Shown here one piece after another: positions 9,624 through 17,578 of a stretch of DNA of 33,803 nt. The position numbers and the translations under genes were made by a program. The notes under the pieces were generated by a model, which was not told the DNA's origin, did no database searches, and worked only from the letters and a program-made list of their open reading frames with translations. Each line of letters begins with the position of its first letter. The stretch's first letter is position 1. The stretch spans positions 1 through 33,803 of the forward strand of contig DAOWLE010000044.1 of NCBI GenBank assembly GCA_030643545.1. Direction: 5' to 3'. This stretch comes from a bacterium. GTDB lineage: Bacteria > Patescibacteriota > Minisyncoccia > JAHIHE01 > DAOWLE01.

Positions 9624-10652
9624 TTAATCGGAAATTAAATTCATAATTATTTTAATCATCACGTCTTTTTCCTTCGGATTGCTTTCCGCTATTAATAAAG
9701 CCAGAGCAATTAAAGTATTGTCGTTTATCTTTTTTTCTCCATTTTCGCGATAGAGATAATTTGATTTATCTAAAAAATAAATAAATAAAAACGAGGAAAT
9801 TCTTTTGTTTCCGTCAGTGAAAGGATGATCTTTTATTGTTAAATACAAAAGATGCGCGGCTTTTTCTTCAATAGTTTTATAAAGTTCTTTTTTGCCGAAT
9901 GTTTGATAAAGATTTTTAACAACGCTTTCAAACGCGCTTTGCTTTTCCGCGCCAAAAAGCTCGCTTGCTTCTTTTTTAACCATAAGCTCTTTTTTCAATT
10001 CCGCAATAATTACAAAACAGTTTTTGTATTTCAAAGCAAAATCAACTTTTTTGCCTTTCGGCTTTTGTAAATTACCCTTGTCATATTTTTCTAAAACGCT
10101 TAATGTTTTAGAATAATCGGCAAGAAGATTGATAATTTCCTTTTCCTGTCCTTTAAGTTGTTTCTTGTTTGCCTGTTTTTGTAAAAAGGCAATTGTAGTT
10201 TGCAACTCATTAAATTTATTCCGCGCTTCTAAAAGCCGGCTTTGATTTATCGCGTATCCTTGAATAAGATAATTTTTTAAAACTTTTGTCGCCCAGATGC
10301 GAAATTGCGTGGCTTGCGCGGAATTCACGCGATAACCAACAGAGATAATTGCGTCAAGATTGTAAAATTTCACAGATTGAGTTTGAGTTTTTCCTTTAAT
10401 AGCTCCATGTTTAGTGGTATGTTCCAAAATGGAACTAACCGAATCTTCTTGTAATTCTCCGCTCTCAAAAATATTTTTAAGATGTTTAGTAATAGCTGGT
10501 CTTTGTACTCCAAAAATTTGAGCCATCTGGCGCGCGTCAAGCCAAACTGTTTCTTTTTCTAAATGCACTTTCAAGCCAACTTCGTTTTTTGAAGCTTGAT
10601 AAATAATAATCTCGCCCTTATTAAATTTTTCCACTTTTTTCTTTTTAGGCAT
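9624..10652 (-). CDS. RhuM-family N-terminus fused to a Fic/Doc domain
   Basis: A 342-residue two-domain protein. Residues about 15-150 match the RhuM (virulence/phage-associated) domain, with WLDARQMAQIFGV and a helix-turn-helix-like QRPAITKHLKNIF segment. Residues about 200-342 form a Fic/Doc domain with the motif HPFTDGNKR at 276-284. Classic Fic AMPylators have GNGR. The Lys after GN is the Doc-type variant; Doc phosphorylates EF-Tu. A toxin or signalling role is therefore likely but unproven. A helical linker at about 150-200 joins the domains. No separate antitoxin is adjacent, so the RhuM part may control the toxin. The gene starts 34 bp after the PD-(D/E)XK nuclease stop and is the last gene of the defence-like array. 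Confidence 0.82.
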   Translation of the reverse strand: MPKKKKVEKFNKGEIIIYQASKNEVGLKVHLEKETVWLDARQMAQIFGVQRPAITKHLKNIFESGELQEDSVSSILEHTTKHGAIKGKTQTQSVKFYNLDAIISVGYRVNSAQATQFRIWATKVLKNYLIQGYAINQSRLLEARNKFNELQTTIAFLQKQANKKQLKGQEKEIINLLADYSKTLSVLEKYDKGNLQKPKGKKVDFALKYKNCFVIIAELKKELMVKKEASELFGAEKQSAFESVVKNLYQTFGKKELYKTIEEKAAHLLYLTIKDHPFTDGNKRISSFLFIYFLDKSNYLYRENGEKKINDNTLIALALLIAESNPKEKDVMIKIIMNLISD

Positions 10653-10686: not shown

Positions 10687-11481
10687 TTATGAATTTGTTT
10701 CTGCGGAGAGAATTGCTTTTCTGTAATTACAATAATCGCATTCAGGATTGGCTTTTGGAATTTTACTGCTATTCAAACATTTATGAATGTCAAAAATAGT
10801 TTTCTCAACCCAGTTATCATTGCCTTTGTATGGAATTAGAGTAATATCAAATTCTAATTTTGCGTCAAACGCTTTTTTATCTGTCTTGCCGTTGCAATAA
10901 ACAAAATAACCAGTATCAGAAACTTTGTAGCCGTTCTGTCTGAGCAGCCACTGATAAACTTCCATTTGCCTTTTATATCCCTCGTGCCAATCCTTATCTA
11001 ATTTTGTGATTTCTTCGGCTTTGGCTGTCGCTTTATAATCAACGACAAACAATTCAGGAGATTTCTCCCCCTTGCGAAGGGGGAGATTAAGAGGGGGTTT
11101 AGCCCAAAGATCATCAATCGCTCCGAATATTAAAAGATTGGTCGGTTTATGTAAAAATTGAATGCCAGTAAAATTGTGTCGCCATTTATCTAAATCTTTG
11201 TGCGGAATCGGTTGGGCATCCACGCCGTATTTTTCAATCAAAGGATGTTTTTTATTTTTCGCCCGGCAAATGTCAAATTCTTTTTTTAATAAAGCGTCCA
11301 CCGCAGAATTCAAAGCAAACGGAAATCCCGGCGGCCGTCCAACTCCCAATTTTCTGTCAAAATAAAAACAGCGAGGGCAATTTAAAAACAAATCAATCTT
11401 TGATCGAGAAAGATTAAAAGGTTCTTTTGAACCGGAGTTGTATAAATTTTTTGTTCGTTTGGAATTGTAGTATTGAGACAT
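10687..11481 (-). CDS. PD-(D/E)XK nuclease of the Cas4/RecB type with four-cysteine cluster
   Basis: Predicted DNA exonuclease of 264 residues. It has an SRSKIDLFLNCPRCF start typical of RecB-like/Cas4 nucleases. The catalytic aspartate lies in GAIDDLW (123-124), followed by VVDYK with D148 and K150. A QMEVYQWLL helix equivalent to the QxxxY motif follows. Two Cys pairs (C35/C38 and C248/C251) probably bind a 4Fe-4S cluster. Residues about 128-141 are an in-frame insertion encoded by a palindromic repeat (11065-11100) just before the catalytic strand. The first 15 codons are duplicated at 13327-13373. There is no cas1, cas2 or CRISPR array in the window, so CRISPR adaptation is unlikely. The context points to phage defence or repair. 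Confidence 0.82.
   Translation of the reverse strand: MSQYYNSKRTKNLYNSGSKEPFNLSRSKIDLFLNCPRCFYFDRKLGVGRPPGFPFALNSAVDALLKKEFDICRAKNKKHPLIEKYGVDAQPIPHKDLDKWRHNFTGIQFLHKPTNLLIFGAIDDLWAKPPLNLPLRKGEKSPELFVVDYKATAKAEEITKLDKDWHEGYKRQMEVYQWLLRQNGYKVSDTGYFVYCNGKTDKKAFDAKLEFDITLIPYKGNDNWVEKTIFDIHKCLNSSKIPKANPECDYCNYRKAILSAETNS
11065..11100. repeat. Palindromic repeat inserted in frame in the PD-(D/E)XK gene
   Basis: A hairpin CTCCCCCTT-GCG-AAGGGGGAG (11065-11085) is followed by ATTAAGAGGGGGTTT. In frame on the minus strand it reads PPLNLPLRKGE, a peptide I recognise as the translation of a dispersed palindromic repeat in many bacteria. It adds about 12 residues to the protein without breaking the frame. 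Confidence 0.8.
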
Positions 11482-11484
11482 AAA
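11438..11484. repeat. 47 bp direct repeat, copy flanking the RT gene downstream
   Basis: Contains the start codon and first 15 codons of the PD-(D/E)XK gene. It matches 13327-13373 at 45 of 47 positions. The two copies bracket the reverse transcriptase gene. Confidence 0.92.
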
Positions 11485-11568
11485 TTTATTGATTATTTTT
11501 TGAAAAGTTTTTTGTATTTCTTAAACTTTGGAGAATGACTGTAAAACAGTTTTTGTAATGAAACCATG

Positions 11569-13194
11569 TCAATTAATAGATTTTACATACTTTACAATAC
11601 TTTTATCTAAAATATCATCTCCTTTCATAATTGATTTCAACCAATGATTTCTTTCATCTTTTGACAATAACGAAGAACAATAAATTAATGCATACCTACC
11701 TCTTCTTTCATAAACATCAATATTTGACTTATGATCTTTTATAAAGATATCATCACTTTTTAATTTTGCAAAAAAAGCTTTATCATATAATGTGTTTATA
11801 GATTCTGTTTTTAAATGTATATGTTTAAAATTCTTGTTTTGAAATAAATACGACATCCACATATTTACATAAGGATAATCTTTGAAATATTTGCTCTTGA
11901 ACAAGAAATTTATCAGTTTAATATTTTTACTAATAAAATCATTATCAACAGTTTTATTTATATATAAAATAACTTCTCTTAATATAGGAAGAAAAAGTTT
12001 AAAATTTTCTAGTATAAACTTGCGTGGTTTTTTGATTCTATAGTGTGTGCATTTTCTTATAACATACTTCAATACTTTATAATCAGAAACTTTTGAATTG
12101 ATATTTTCTTTGATTATTTTTGTATAAGCATTTGATAAAATATTGAATTGATCATTTTTTGACATTTTTTTATATATCTTACCAAAATCTAAATTCTCAG
12201 GATCTTCTTCCATATCATACGGGTCAATTCCTGTGTCATATTGATTAATTAAATCTATTTTATTCTCTATCTCATCCATTGCTTTTTTTTCTGTGATATT
12301 AAGAATATTATTATCTTCTTGTTTTTCTTCATTTTTAAAATATTTTTCTTTAAATATTTCTACATCACAAATTTTTGTCTTTTCTCCTGAAAATATAAGC
12401 CTGTGTGATTTATAAATGTAACAACTTATCTCGTGTAAAATATATTCTAAATCCTCTTTCTTTTTTGAAAAAATACGAATGTCGTCGCTGTATCTAACAA
12501 AATTACATGTATATTGTAATATCTTTTTATCAATATCACTCATTATTGCTTCAGATAAAATTGTACTTGCGGCTGGTCCTACTGGTATACCTTTAGATGT
12601 GCTCTTGTTTAAATTTAGCAAAAAATTTTCAAGAACAACAGCTTCTTCTTCTAAACTTCCTTCTCCAGCTTCAGATATCATATTTCGAACCCTATGAATA
12701 TAAATTTGATTGTAAAAATCAGCAATATCCGCCACTAATATATATCCTTTACTATATTTTTTACAAAAATCCTCAGTTTTTTTTGAAAAATCTCCCCATC
12801 CATTATCATCTTTTCTAAAAAATGATCCATCAGAAGTAGGTTTGATTCTATAAGAACATGCTATTTTTCTTCTAATGGAAACTCTGTGCTTTTCTATGTT
12901 TTTACAGATTTCATAAACTAATGCCGTATAGATAAGAGAATCTATTGGCTCTAAATTGTGTACAATTCTATAATTATAATTTGGCTTAAGAGCAAGCATT
13001 ATGTCAGGTGATTTTGGCGCATAATCAAAAATATTAATTTTTCTAATGTATTCTTTAACTTCTATCCAGTTTTCTGAAATTGAATGAAATTCAAACGATT
13101 TGGGAAAAAAATCGCTACTGTAAAATTTAAGATGGTGTTTTAACGACCATTCTAAAAATCTATCGTCAATAAATTTAGTTTTTACTTTTTTCAC
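11569..13194 (-). CDS. Reverse transcriptase, defence-associated (Abi/UG-like), class unassigned
   Basis: A 541-residue RNA-directed DNA polymerase. The palm motifs are intact: motif A LVADIADFYNQI (D156), the GIPVGPAASTILSE segment at 202-215 (family motif 4) and the catalytic YSDD at 235-238, followed by an SGEKTKI segment. A hydrophilic insert covers about 283-330. The C-terminal 210 residues look mostly helical and end with an ALIYCSSLLSKDERNHWLK segment similar in style to Abi/UG reverse transcriptases. There is no VTG motif as in retrons and no maturase or HNH domain as in group II introns. It is flanked by 47 bp direct repeats and sits between the RloB-like and PD-(D/E)XK genes. Its AT-rich codon use and many ATA and AAT codons differ somewhat from the housekeeping genes, which fits transfer. 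Confidence 0.9.
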   Translation of the reverse strand: MKKVKTKFIDDRFLEWSLKHHLKFYSSDFFPKSFEFHSISENWIEVKEYIRKINIFDYAPKSPDIMLALKPNYNYRIVHNLEPIDSLIYTALVYEICKNIEKHRVSIRRKIACSYRIKPTSDGSFFRKDDNGWGDFSKKTEDFCKKYSKGYILVADIADFYNQIYIHRVRNMISEAGEGSLEEEAVVLENFLLNLNKSTSKGIPVGPAASTILSEAIMSDIDKKILQYTCNFVRYSDDIRIFSKKKEDLEYILHEISCYIYKSHRLIFSGEKTKICDVEIFKEKYFKNEEKQEDNNILNITEKKAMDEIENKIDLINQYDTGIDPYDMEEDPENLDFGKIYKKMSKNDQFNILSNAYTKIIKENINSKVSDYKVLKYVIRKCTHYRIKKPRKFILENFKLFLPILREVILYINKTVDNDFISKNIKLINFLFKSKYFKDYPYVNMWMSYLFQNKNFKHIHLKTESINTLYDKAFFAKLKSDDIFIKDHKSNIDVYERRGRYALIYCSSLLSKDERNHWLKSIMKGDDILDKSIVKYVKSIN

Positions 13195-13233
13195 ATTATT
13201 GTTTTTATTTTCTATTAACCTTTTTTATTATCA

Positions 13234-13306
13234 CTATCTCCAAACCTCGTCAATTTCGTCTTTGATTTATTGCTCAAAAACTTCAATTAACTGTTGGCTG
13301 GCTTAT
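13234..13306 (-). pseudogene. Decayed coding fragment related to the pseudogene at 15547-15976
   Basis: On the minus strand a short frame reads VFEQ-stop-IKDEIDEVWR-stop. It parallels VFKQQIKDEIVEIF at the end of the 15547 pseudogene, with roughly 34 of 45 bases identical. The in-frame TAA shows decay. It lies inside the RT cassette, upstream of the RT start. The rest of the 187 bp between RT and the RloB-like gene is the 47 bp repeat and AT-rich sequence. No strong hairpin suitable for a structured RT template RNA is evident there. Confidence 0.5.
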
Positions 13307-13326
13307 TAGGCAAATGCAGGCGGGGA

Positions 13327-13373
13327 TTGTATAAATTTTTTGTTCGTTTGGAATTGTAGTGTTGGGACATAAA
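13327..13373. repeat. 47 bp direct repeat, copy upstream of the RT gene
   Basis: Duplicate of the 5' end of the PD-(D/E)XK gene. It encodes a start codon and MSQHYNSKRTKNLYN and then runs into unrelated sequence with a stop 12 codons later. Its ATG lies 8 bp after the stop of the RloB-like gene, where the second gene of an operon would be expected. Confidence 0.92.
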
Positions 13374-13381
13374 GTTATAAT

Positions 13382-13912
13382 TTATTTTCCCTCCATAATT
13401 GAAATTAATTTGTTTAATTCAAATATTGCCGATCTTTTAGAATCTAATAACTTTTTGGAAAATAACTTGTCGTATTCGCTCGGTTTACCACGTTTCTTTT
13501 TTTCAAGATATTTTAACTCAAACTCATTTTTACACCACCTGGAATTTTTTCCGTTTGGTTTTTTGTAAATAATTGATATAAGTAAAAATTCCAAACAAGG
13601 AGTATTTTCTATTAATTCAATTTTTCTTCTTTTTGCTTCTTGTCTTGCTTCAATCATTTCATTTTTTGGTTTATCGTTATCAAAAACAACAATTTTTCTA
13701 TCAAAAGCACCATATGTTTTATCTGCATCAATAATAATATTTTGTGCATCACCACCTTTCCCTTTTTTAACAGTCGTAGCTGTGCCACTATTGCGAGAAT
13801 ATAATTTTCTTAAATGTTTTAAAAACATTTCTTCGTTAAATCCTTCTCCGAACAGAAGAAGAGTTTTTTTTGCTCTTCGTCTTTTCTTTTTGTATGGATT
13901 AGTTCTTGACAT
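13382..13912 (-). CDS. RloB/AbiLii-like Toprim protein
   Basis: A 176-residue protein with a Toprim-like layout of the RloB family: a basic N-terminus, LLLFGEG with the conserved Glu at 23, FDND at 77-80 supplying the DxD pair, and NTPCLEFLL near 103-111, which corresponds to the family's NPxFExWL motif. RloB proteins pair with AAA ATPases in AbiL and RloA/B modules and are presumed nucleases, though their reaction is not settled. It starts 12 bp after the ATPase stop, a tight operon. The N-terminal KKKRRRAKK stretch may contact nucleic acid. The C-terminus is slightly shorter than usual, and the final HF-type motif is not evident. Confidence 0.8.
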   Translation of the reverse strand: MSRTNPYKKKRRRAKKTLLLFGEGFNEEMFLKHLRKLYSRNSGTATTVKKGKGGDAQNIIIDADKTYGAFDRKIVVFDNDKPKNEMIEARQEAKRRKIELIENTPCLEFLLISIIYKKPNGKNSRWCKNEFELKYLEKKKRGKPSEYDKLFSKKLLDSKRSAIFELNKLISIMEGK

Positions 13913-13924
13913 ATTTGTTTTATC

Positions 13925-15139
13925 TTATAATTTAGGAACGGCTCCATACGCGCCTGCAATATATTTTGCGTAATAATTATCATCGGCGCGCACTCCAGAC
14001 ACATCATCTAGACGCCAGGATTCGCTTTCTCCTTTTTCATTTTTTTCTGTGAGAATAATCTGATATTTATCTAGCTTATTTAAAACCAGATGACTATGAG
14101 TGCTGAAAAATAATTGAGCATTATTAGGATTCGTTTCTGGATGAATAAATAATTCATACAGAGATAAAACTATTTCCGGATGCAGATTAACATCAAATTC
14201 ATCAAGAACCGCAACACCTCCATTAGCTAACACCAAAAGAATAGTTTTTAATAAAATAAAAAGCTGCTTTGTGCCAGAAGATTCATATTGCATTGGGAGA
14301 TATTCAGTCCGATTGTTAAAAAAATGGGCAACTTTTACATTCATTGAAAAACTATTTTCTTTTTTCTCTTTTTTTATTTTAAACGACTCTAAACCAAGAT
14401 CAAAACGAGATAATAATTTTTCAGCTTCTTTCTTTAGTGTTTCATTTTTACTTTCACTATAGAAATCCAGTGCTTCAATCAACTGTTGATTTGCGTTAGG
14501 CAAAAGATGATCGCCAATCCAGCCAGCTTCAATAACATTAGTCTCTACTTTTTTCCAATAGTCGAAAAATTTAAGACTCTCTTTATGTCCCAAGCGAACA
14601 GCGATACTAATTATACTAGCATTGGGCCGAATTGAGTTTTCAAATCCGTTTGGAAGATTAAAACTCTTATCGTTCAGTTCATATTCTCCACTTTTCCGGT
14701 TCCACTGACGGGAAAAAATCTTCTTGCTTGTCATTTTTTGTTTGGTTTTATTTTTAACTTTCAGCTCTTCTAAAACAATTTTCTTTTCTTCCAAAATAAA
14801 GCTGTAAGTATAAATATTACCATCAATTTCAAAATCAGCCGACAACTTAATTGGTTTATTCTTCCGCTCGCCAAACATAAACGATTTTACCGGCAATGGC
14901 GTTGTTGGATTAATATTAGATGAATCTGCTATTAGCCATTTTATAAACGGCAAAACTTTCAACAAATTTGTCTTGCCAGAAGCGTTCGGCCCTATTACGG
15001 TTTCAATTTTAGAAAGTCGAGTCCCCGAAGGAGTTAAAAAATAACCATGATTGTTTGGCGCTTTTTCATTTACAACAAAACTTACCGAGCAATCTTCGGC
15101 AAATGAATAAAAATTTTTGCATGAAAATGAATGAATCAT
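13925..15139 (-). CDS. AAA15/AbiLi-like ATPase (partner of the RloB-like protein)
   Basis: A 404-residue SMC/ABC-like ATPase of the AAA15 family. The N-terminus MIHSFSCKNFYSF is the usual start. Walker A GPNASGKT lies at 50-57, the SSGTKQLF signature at about 288-295, Walker B VLDEFD at 311-316, and a switch His in STHSH. The C-terminus carries IAGAYGAVP, which is typical of AbiLi/AAA15 proteins. Such ATPases act as sensors or motors for a partner nuclease, here the RloB-like protein 12 bp downstream, so the pair resembles lactococcal AbiL. It is the first gene of the island's main operon and has an unusual AT-rich inverted repeat upstream instead of a clear promoter. Confidence 0.88.
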   Translation of the reverse strand: MIHSFSCKNFYSFAEDCSVSFVVNEKAPNNHGYFLTPSGTRLSKIETVIGPNASGKTNLLKVLPFIKWLIADSSNINPTTPLPVKSFMFGERKNKPIKLSADFEIDGNIYTYSFILEEKKIVLEELKVKNKTKQKMTSKKIFSRQWNRKSGEYELNDKSFNLPNGFENSIRPNASIISIAVRLGHKESLKFFDYWKKVETNVIEAGWIGDHLLPNANQQLIEALDFYSESKNETLKKEAEKLLSRFDLGLESFKIKKEKKENSFSMNVKVAHFFNNRTEYLPMQYESSGTKQLFILLKTILLVLANGGVAVLDEFDVNLHPEIVLSLYELFIHPETNPNNAQLFFSTHSHLVLNKLDKYQIILTEKNEKGESESWRLDDVSGVRADDNYYAKYIAGAYGAVPKL

Positions 15140-15360: not shown

Positions 15361-15452
15361 TATATACAAAATATAAAATACATAAAAAAATCTATAGTTA
15401 TATGTTAGCAAAATTATATATATATGTCAAGAACCTACAAATTTTTGTATAA

Positions 15453-15483
15453 AAATGCTTAAAATCATATATTTTAAGCATTT
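15453..15483. terminator. Bidirectional terminator-like hairpin
   Basis: A perfect 13 bp stem (AAATGCTTAAAAT and complement) with a 5 nt loop has T-rich sequence on both exits. On the minus strand it would stop transcripts coming from the DpnI region before the ATPase operon. Confidence 0.7.
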
Positions 15484-15546
15484 TTTAACTCCGTTAGCAC
15501 TTTTTTAAAAAAAAGTTATCCACAATCTAAAATTTATTTCATTTTC

Positions 15547-16892: not shown

Positions 16893-16981
16893 ATATAATA
16901 CTTTAATTTCTATTTTTATTCTACAACGAAAACGTCCAAAAATCAACAGAGGGTTTTTATGGATAAATTATAATTAAAAAA

Positions 16982-17000
16982 GCGGCAATCAAATTGCCGC
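16982..17000 (-). terminator. Rho-independent terminator of the tRNA-Glu array
   Basis: An 8 bp stem GCGGCAAT/ATTGCCGC with a CAA loop is followed on the minus strand by TTTTTT. It lies just downstream of the last tRNA-Glu fragment. Confidence 0.85.
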
Positions 17001-17017
17001 AAAAGTTTTTGTGAAAG

Positions 17018-17131
17018 CAGGGCTATCGGGATTCGAACCCGAGTTACTAGGATGCCCGCCCTACGGCGGATCTCCTCCTACGGCGGATCCGCAGAAAGCG
17101 GACGCTAAAAGCGGAAAAACCTATCGTCTTA
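17018..17131 (-). pseudogene. Broken tRNA-Glu copy 1 with a 61 nt insert in the anticodon
   Basis: The 3' half of tRNA-Glu (T arm and acceptor strand) and the anticodon stem are retained. An insert at 17055-17115 separates nt 35 and 36 of the tRNA. The insert is a chain of GC-rich hairpins (CCGCC..GGCGG, TCCGC..GCGGA). The acceptor and most of the D arm on the 5' side are replaced by TAATAAAG sequence. It cannot form a tRNA. Confidence 0.8.
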
Positions 17132-17152
17132 ATAAAGTTTTTTGTTGAAAAG

Positions 17153-17236
17153 CAGGGCTATCGGGATTCGAACCCGAGTTACTAGGATGCCCGCCCTTCG
17201 GCGGGTCCGCAGGAGGCGGAAAAACCTATCGTCCTA
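17153..17236 (-). pseudogene. Broken tRNA-Glu copy 2 with a 31 nt insert in the anticodon
   Basis: Same structure as copy 1. The insert at 17190-17220 is two tandem hairpins and sits between nt 35 and 36 of the tRNA. The flank TAATAAAGTTTTTTGTTGAAAA is shared with copy 1, so the two arose by tandem duplication. The 5' acceptor and D arm are missing. Confidence 0.8.
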
Positions 17237-17257
17237 ATAAAGTTTTTTGTTGAAAAG

Positions 17258-17331
17258 CAGGGCTATCGGGATTCGAACCCGAGTTACTAGGATGAAAACC
17301 TAGCGTCCTAACCAGACTAGACGATAGCCCC
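17258..17331 (-). tRNA. tRNA-Glu(TTC), intact
   Basis: A 74 nt tRNA. The acceptor GGGGCTA pairs with TAGCCCT (G1-U72 wobble) and has discriminator G, as in other tRNA-Glu. The D arm starts GTCTAG. The anticodon arm CTAGG-TTTTCAT-CCTAG gives anticodon TTC. The T arm is TCGGG-TTCGAAT-CCCGA. CCA is not encoded. It is the only unbroken member of the four-copy array. Confidence 0.96.
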
Positions 17332-17366
17332 ATTATTGTATTTTCTTGTAATTATTAAAACTGTAA

Positions 17367-17444
17367 TTACTAGGATGCCCGCTTACAGCGGATCCGCCGT
17401 AGGCGGAAAAACCTAGCGTCCTAACCAGACTAGACGATAGCCCC
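17367..17444 (-). pseudogene. Broken tRNA-Glu copy 4 with a 30 nt insert in the anticodon
   Basis: It retains the complete 5' half (acceptor strand, D arm, anticodon stem) and the 3' side of the anticodon stem. The insert at 17378-17407 carries two hairpins. The T arm and 3' acceptor strand are missing. It is complementary in content to copies 1 and 2, which keep the 3' half. The remaining sequence up to rpmH (17445-17578) holds nothing I can identify. Confidence 0.8.
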
Positions 17445-17578
17445 ATTGTTTAATAAATCTTTGATTCTTTTTTTTAATAATTCTCTTTGTTGTCCGTTTG
17501 TTTTTAATTCAAATTGCCAAATATATCAATCAGCTTTATTTTAAAAACATAAAAATCGCCAAAATATTTTTTGGATAA

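Follow-up and report, generated by a model that had tools for sequence, protein, structure and literature searches.

A Drt8-type reverse transcriptase between two copies of the start of a Cas4-like nuclease gene: a probable recombination scar

DRT8 has been described by its PD-(D/E)XK component (PMC12596737), and no mechanism is given for it (PMC13213688). Homology-facilitated illegitimate recombination (HFIR) during natural transformation is an established reaction, in which foreign DNA is gained by means of one homologous anchor and one non-homologous joint (PMC3240628). The locus described here resembles both of these systems in part; a Drt8-type reverse transcriptase (RT) lies directly upstream of a PD-(D/E)XK nuclease gene and is flanked by two copies, R1 and R2, of the start of that gene. 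It was analysed within a stretch of 33,803 nucleotides (the window), and its features are as follows.

13925 to 15139, reverse strand: AbiLi-like AAA ATPase of 404 amino acids (PADLOC AbiLi, 5.1e-72)
13382 to 13912, reverse strand: RloB/AbiLii-like protein of 176 amino acids (Pfam RloB, 7.4e-11; PADLOC AbiLii, 3e-14)
13327 to 13373, reverse strand: R1, the upstream repeat, read from the repeat alignment and its codon 4 as a dead copy of nuclease codons 1-15, in a 27-codon ORF
13195 to 13326, reverse strand: leader, from R1 to the RT (RNA fold z about -2.6 against shuffles, a weak signal from a single sequence); its 13326 end is the putative illegitimate joint
11569 to 13194, reverse strand: Drt8-type UG/Abi RT of 541 amino acids, with a GTG start and YSDD intact (PADLOC Drt8, 7.8e-117; AlphaFold2 model)
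11485 to 11568, reverse strand: spacer, from the RT stop to the nuclease (GC 23%; RNA fold z = 0.09, not notable)
11438 to 11484, reverse strand: R2, the downstream repeat, read from the repeat alignment and its codons as the nuclease gene's authentic 5' end
10687 to 11481, reverse strand: intact Cas4/AddB-like PD-(D/E)XK nuclease of 264 amino acids, a widespread chromosomal gene in the class (Pfam PDDEXK_1, 8e-12)
9624 to 10652, reverse strand: RhuM-Fic protein (PDC-S23), a neighbouring gene outside any conserved operon

The reverse transcriptase, the repeats and the nuclease

The RT is encoded by an intact ORF and matches the PADLOC Drt8 model (PDLC03783) across residues 11-539, i.e. over its full length, while the runner-up model reached 3.9e-38. 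YSDD occupies residues 235-238, and D156, D237 and D238 are invariant in alignments. An AlphaFold2 model of the protein (pLDDT 74) was matched, along most of its length, by hexameric DRT6, DRT4/UG15, Abi-P2, AbiA and AbiK. When 384 genomes of the class and 333 of the phylum (two overlapping samples) were searched, a strong Drt8 match was found only in the window's own genome, with phylum search bit scores of 389 for this genome and 99.6 for the next. Single-protein scans of genome contigs and viral contigs gave no close relatives of the RT; members of the Drt8 family are found on plasmids of Rhizobium, Caballeronia and Aminobacter and also in viral contigs. On an Aminobacter plasmid (L115, 2992-6674), a Drt8 RT immediately adjoins a type VII-A retron RT. 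The GC content of the RT gene is 25% and its GC3 is 0.18, low even within the window, in which RloB (0.19) and DpnI (0.16) are other genes of low GC3. On these sequence grounds it is well supported that the RT is a foreign inserted module acquired from outside, because it is AT-rich and has no comparable relative in the searched genomes of the class and phylum. A sequence-only reading of this DNA had also taken the RT for an inserted module that left the nuclease start intact, and the rarity of Drt8, the low GC and the dead state of R1 (see below) speak for it.

Alignment of 11438-11484 with 13327-13373 gives 45 identities in 47 bases, the longest exact run being 34, and the similarity reaches about 66 bp once one gap is allowed; no such match was present in 100 dinucleotide shuffles of the window. 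The description of these 47-bp repeats as copies of the 5' end of the PD-(D/E)XK gene was thus confirmed. The repeat is made up of 3 bases upstream of the nuclease ATG and codons 1-15, with the start of the gene as one edge and an arbitrary codon as the other. Only two differences separate R1 from R2, both of them T/C on the coding strand. At codon 4, R1 has His, where Tyr or Phe is found in 164 of 166 nuclease orthologues, and because of this His, R1 is taken to be a decayed, dead fragment; R2, whose codon states match the orthologues, is judged to be the constrained copy.

Three other identities of the repeat were tried and ruled out. It is not a dispersed element, an alternative that the sequence-only reading had kept in view, since the genome holds R1 and R2 only; a 28-bp core of the repeat has no third copy anywhere in its 845 kb. 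It is not a feature of Drt8 either, because eight other Drt8 RTs have no direct repeats around them. A diversity-generating retroelement, which would have repeats differing at template adenines, was rejected on the grounds that the copies have only the two T/C differences and that the RT is Drt8/UG by model.

Relatives of the nuclease are present in 247 of the 384 class genomes (about two thirds), are often 55-80% identical to it, and have unrelated neighbours that differ from genome to genome. In the scan of genome contigs, most of its occurrences were in Parcubacteria-type genomes, with others in Nitrospirota, Scalindua and further groups. Its invariant residues comprise a four-cysteine pattern (C35, C38, C248 and C251) and a VDYK motif with D148-Y149-K150, and its structure model matches the folds of AdnAB, Cas4, AddAB and Exo5. 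A 34-bp palindromic element (CCCCCTCTTAATCTCCCCCTTCGCAAGGGGGAGA) lies in frame within the nuclease gene at 11064-11097 on the reverse strand (KPPLNLPLRKGEK); this element is missing from the aligned orthologues, and the genome holds two more near copies of it.

Origin of the insert

The reading that we prefer, with a probability of about 0.66, is that the RT segment was added upstream of the resident nuclease by recombination anchored in the nuclease gene. The donor would have carried the leader, the RT and the beginning of an almost identical nuclease gene. On one side, donor and resident DNA would have been joined by a homologous crossover within that gene, in a homologous tract that cannot be delimited; on the other side, the donor leader would have been joined illegitimately to the resident nuclease gene just after codon 15. 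Resident codons 1-15 would in this way have been stranded upstream as R1, and the downstream gene restored with the second copy, R2. A repeat with one edge at an end of the gene and its second edge at any point inside is the outcome expected of one homologous crossover and one illegitimate joint; in the window, the first edge coincides with the gene start, at which orthologous sequence would stop. The route might have been HFIR or, equally, single-crossover integration of a circularised fragment, both of which would give the same map; we infer the order of events and DNA uptake as the route, and ComEC and DprA are encoded in the genome. Neither the donor sequence nor the presumed pre-insertion allele was found among the genomes searched, which are drafts and mostly metagenome-type assemblies. 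For the leader DNA, the genome itself gave only short AT-rich pieces without a significant match, plasmids gave none, and an Rfam search returned no convincing match to a known RNA; the leader might contain an RNA used by the RT. The RT would presumably act in the manner of other UG/Abi defence RTs, with phage-triggered DNA synthesis and growth arrest, and would form a system complete in itself that does not depend on the upstream AbiL pair.

Sequence comparison revealed two independent parallels to this structure. In the first (G137; L121, 6305-9160), a 225-bp duplication of the nuclease 5' end, 92.9% identical, surrounds a cassette of about 2.4 kb with DUF3024/PDC-S43, coiled-coil, HTH and NYN-domain genes; the duplication comprises 213 bp from the nuclease start and 11 bp, and the whole nuclease lies downstream. 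The second (G026) is a mirror image, in which the terminal 90-112 bp of the nuclease recur downstream, around a gene of 1.28 kb. In a further genome (G014), just the first 24 codons of the nuclease are left, with an ATPase-HerA pair on one side and a UvrD fragment on the other.

These parallels bear on an alternative that we consider unlikely, namely site-specific integration, with the nuclease 5' end as the attachment site, the 47-bp repeats as attL and attR, and insertion (with potential excision) of the RT cassette by a recombinase whose gene lies elsewhere. A small cassette between clean direct repeats, its recurrence in G137 and the restoration of the nuclease, as for integrations at gene ends (of which the prophages in icd are an example), would be in keeping with such an event. 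However, the duplications differ in length (47 and 225 bp) and in their inner ends, G026 uses the 3' end, and no recombinase was found in the window, G137 or G026 inserts or in the scanned neighbouring ORFs. With the window excluded, end duplications are also not significantly commoner at the nuclease than at other genes. Of the four gene-end duplications detected in a first set (105 loci, 1230 genes), three belonged to the nuclease; a second set, of 87 loci, had four, all of them at other genes. Pooled without the window, the counts are 2/190 for the nuclease and 5/2107 for other genes (p=0.11), and with it 3/191 for the nuclease (p=0.023); since the loci were not centred on the control genes and there is some overlap between the samples, an enrichment of end duplications at the nuclease is offered as a suggestion. 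The idea of the nuclease as a proven hotspot was dropped in view of the pooled p without the window and the second set.

Duplication followed by decay seems to us just as improbable as site-specific integration. The nuclease would have been tandemly duplicated, or joined by a second copy that arrived together with the RT, and all but the first 15 codons of the upstream copy would have been deleted. The final map would be identical, and truncated or extra pieces of the nuclease do occur in three other genomes (G038, G022 and G065), but a deletion ending in the leader would be required on top of the acquisition, nothing else of the upstream copy is left, and R1 still shares 96% identity with R2.

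The AbiL-like pair and the question of an operon

The closest copy of the ATPase-RloB pair is that of G010, in which the two proteins are 88% and 74% identical to those of the window and neither the nuclease nor the RT follows. The DNA homology between the two runs from 15152 to 13375 of the window, ending just past the RloB stop. Six further genomes of the class also have the pair with neither gene behind it, which makes seven relatives in all. After the pair in G010 (L308, 9689-9720), a stretch matches the nuclease start at 14 of 21 bases, with a chance probability of about 2e-4, and the nuclease was not found in the G010 genome; this likeness, which does not discriminate R1 from R2, could be a remnant or microhomology. 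A palindrome upstream of the pair, at 15426-15485 of the window, is 95% identical in G010, where the stretch from the palindrome to the ATPase start is not conserved. Further upstream, at 16980-17445 on the reverse strand, an intact tRNA-Glu (17331-17257) lies amid three partial copies, each with a palindromic, GC-rich insert of about 30-60 nt that breaks the anticodon loop after ...GGTTTT and before CATCCTAG; next to these tRNA copies are the gene for DpnI and the cluster of defence genes.

It was claimed in the sequence-only reading that the RT had split a functional defence operon, ATPase-Toprim-nuclease-RhuM/Fic, and this has become very unlikely. The gene order does result once the insert is removed, deletion of 11485-13373 placing the nuclease ATG beside RloB, as was confirmed on the map, and the adjoining genes are of defence type. 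The upstream ATG, in R1, follows the RloB stop by 11 bases, a value corrected from 8 bp; this spacing carries little weight because, in 46 of 160 loci, no more than 15 bp separate the preceding gene from the nuclease start. With unrelated neighbours in genome after genome, the nuclease does not look like a defence-operon partner, and relatives of RhuM-Fic are found near it at only a few, scattered loci. Judged by comparison of the genomes, the four genes do not form a conserved unit, because the seven relatives carry the AbiL pair without the nuclease or the RT. Of the RT-free operon for which related genomes were searched, the pair without the RT was recovered, but in none of them joined to the nuclease, and no empty site, with RloB joined directly to this nuclease, was found among related genomes.

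An assembly artefact, in which strain variants were joined through a short repeat into a chimeric contig, is highly improbable in spite of the draft state of the genome (45 contigs) and the fact that short repeats can mislead assemblers, since two mismatches separate the copies, which are longer than their 34-bp exact run, both copies have unique flanks, and comparable structures exist in unrelated genomes.

Comparison with known systems

In PADLOC, DRT8 is represented by the Drt8 RT and a partner, RTasPDDEXK (PDLC03797), and it is to the first of these that the window corresponds over the full length of the protein. A PD-(D/E)XK gene lies directly downstream of the RT both in the window and in L295, where it is the RTasPDDEXK partner (PADLOC, 7e-64). 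Unlike this partner, the window nuclease has no RTasPDDEXK match, PADLOC giving Cas4 models only, and hhalign assigned a probability of 0.5% to its relation with the L295 protein; it is a Cas4-like gene that is common in genomes without any Drt8 RT. By sequence, the RT is hence a Drt8 member with its canonical partner missing. Drt8 RTs without an RTasPDDEXK partner also seem to occur elsewhere, because the PADLOC partner was present in one of the four scanned Drt8-neighbour proteins, that of L295. It is possible that the resident Cas4-like nuclease has been recruited by the RT as a partner. A bolder view, for which we see little likelihood, is that the landing site was not neutral, the Drt8 RT having been retained for the nuclease as a substitute partner, and that the nuclease gene may be a place at which defence cassettes dock time and again, a duplicated gene end being left by each.

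If recombination anchored in the nuclease gene is indeed the origin, the locus is a readable scar of how a small, streamlined genome can gain a defence gene without its own mobile element, using a conserved gene as the anchor and duplicating the end of that gene. The two further cases at the nuclease suggest that such gene-end scars may be usable for tracing cassette gain. A misleading four-gene 'defence operon' is at the same time removed, the structure being better read as a recombination scar.

With the abortive infection pair AbiL (AbiLi-AbiLii), the window shares an adjacent ATPase and RloB-like gene with matches to both PADLOC models; the pair is here merely a neighbour of the RT, with no evidence of a functional tie. 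Integration at gene ends with gene restoration leaves, as in the window, a whole target gene and the displaced gene end on the far side, whereas the window has no integrase, the duplicated length varies among the cases and either gene end is used. The repeat fits the one homologous anchor and one non-homologous joint of HFIR; the products of that reaction usually lose resident DNA, whereas in the window the joint would lie inside the anchor gene, and the first codons are duplicated.
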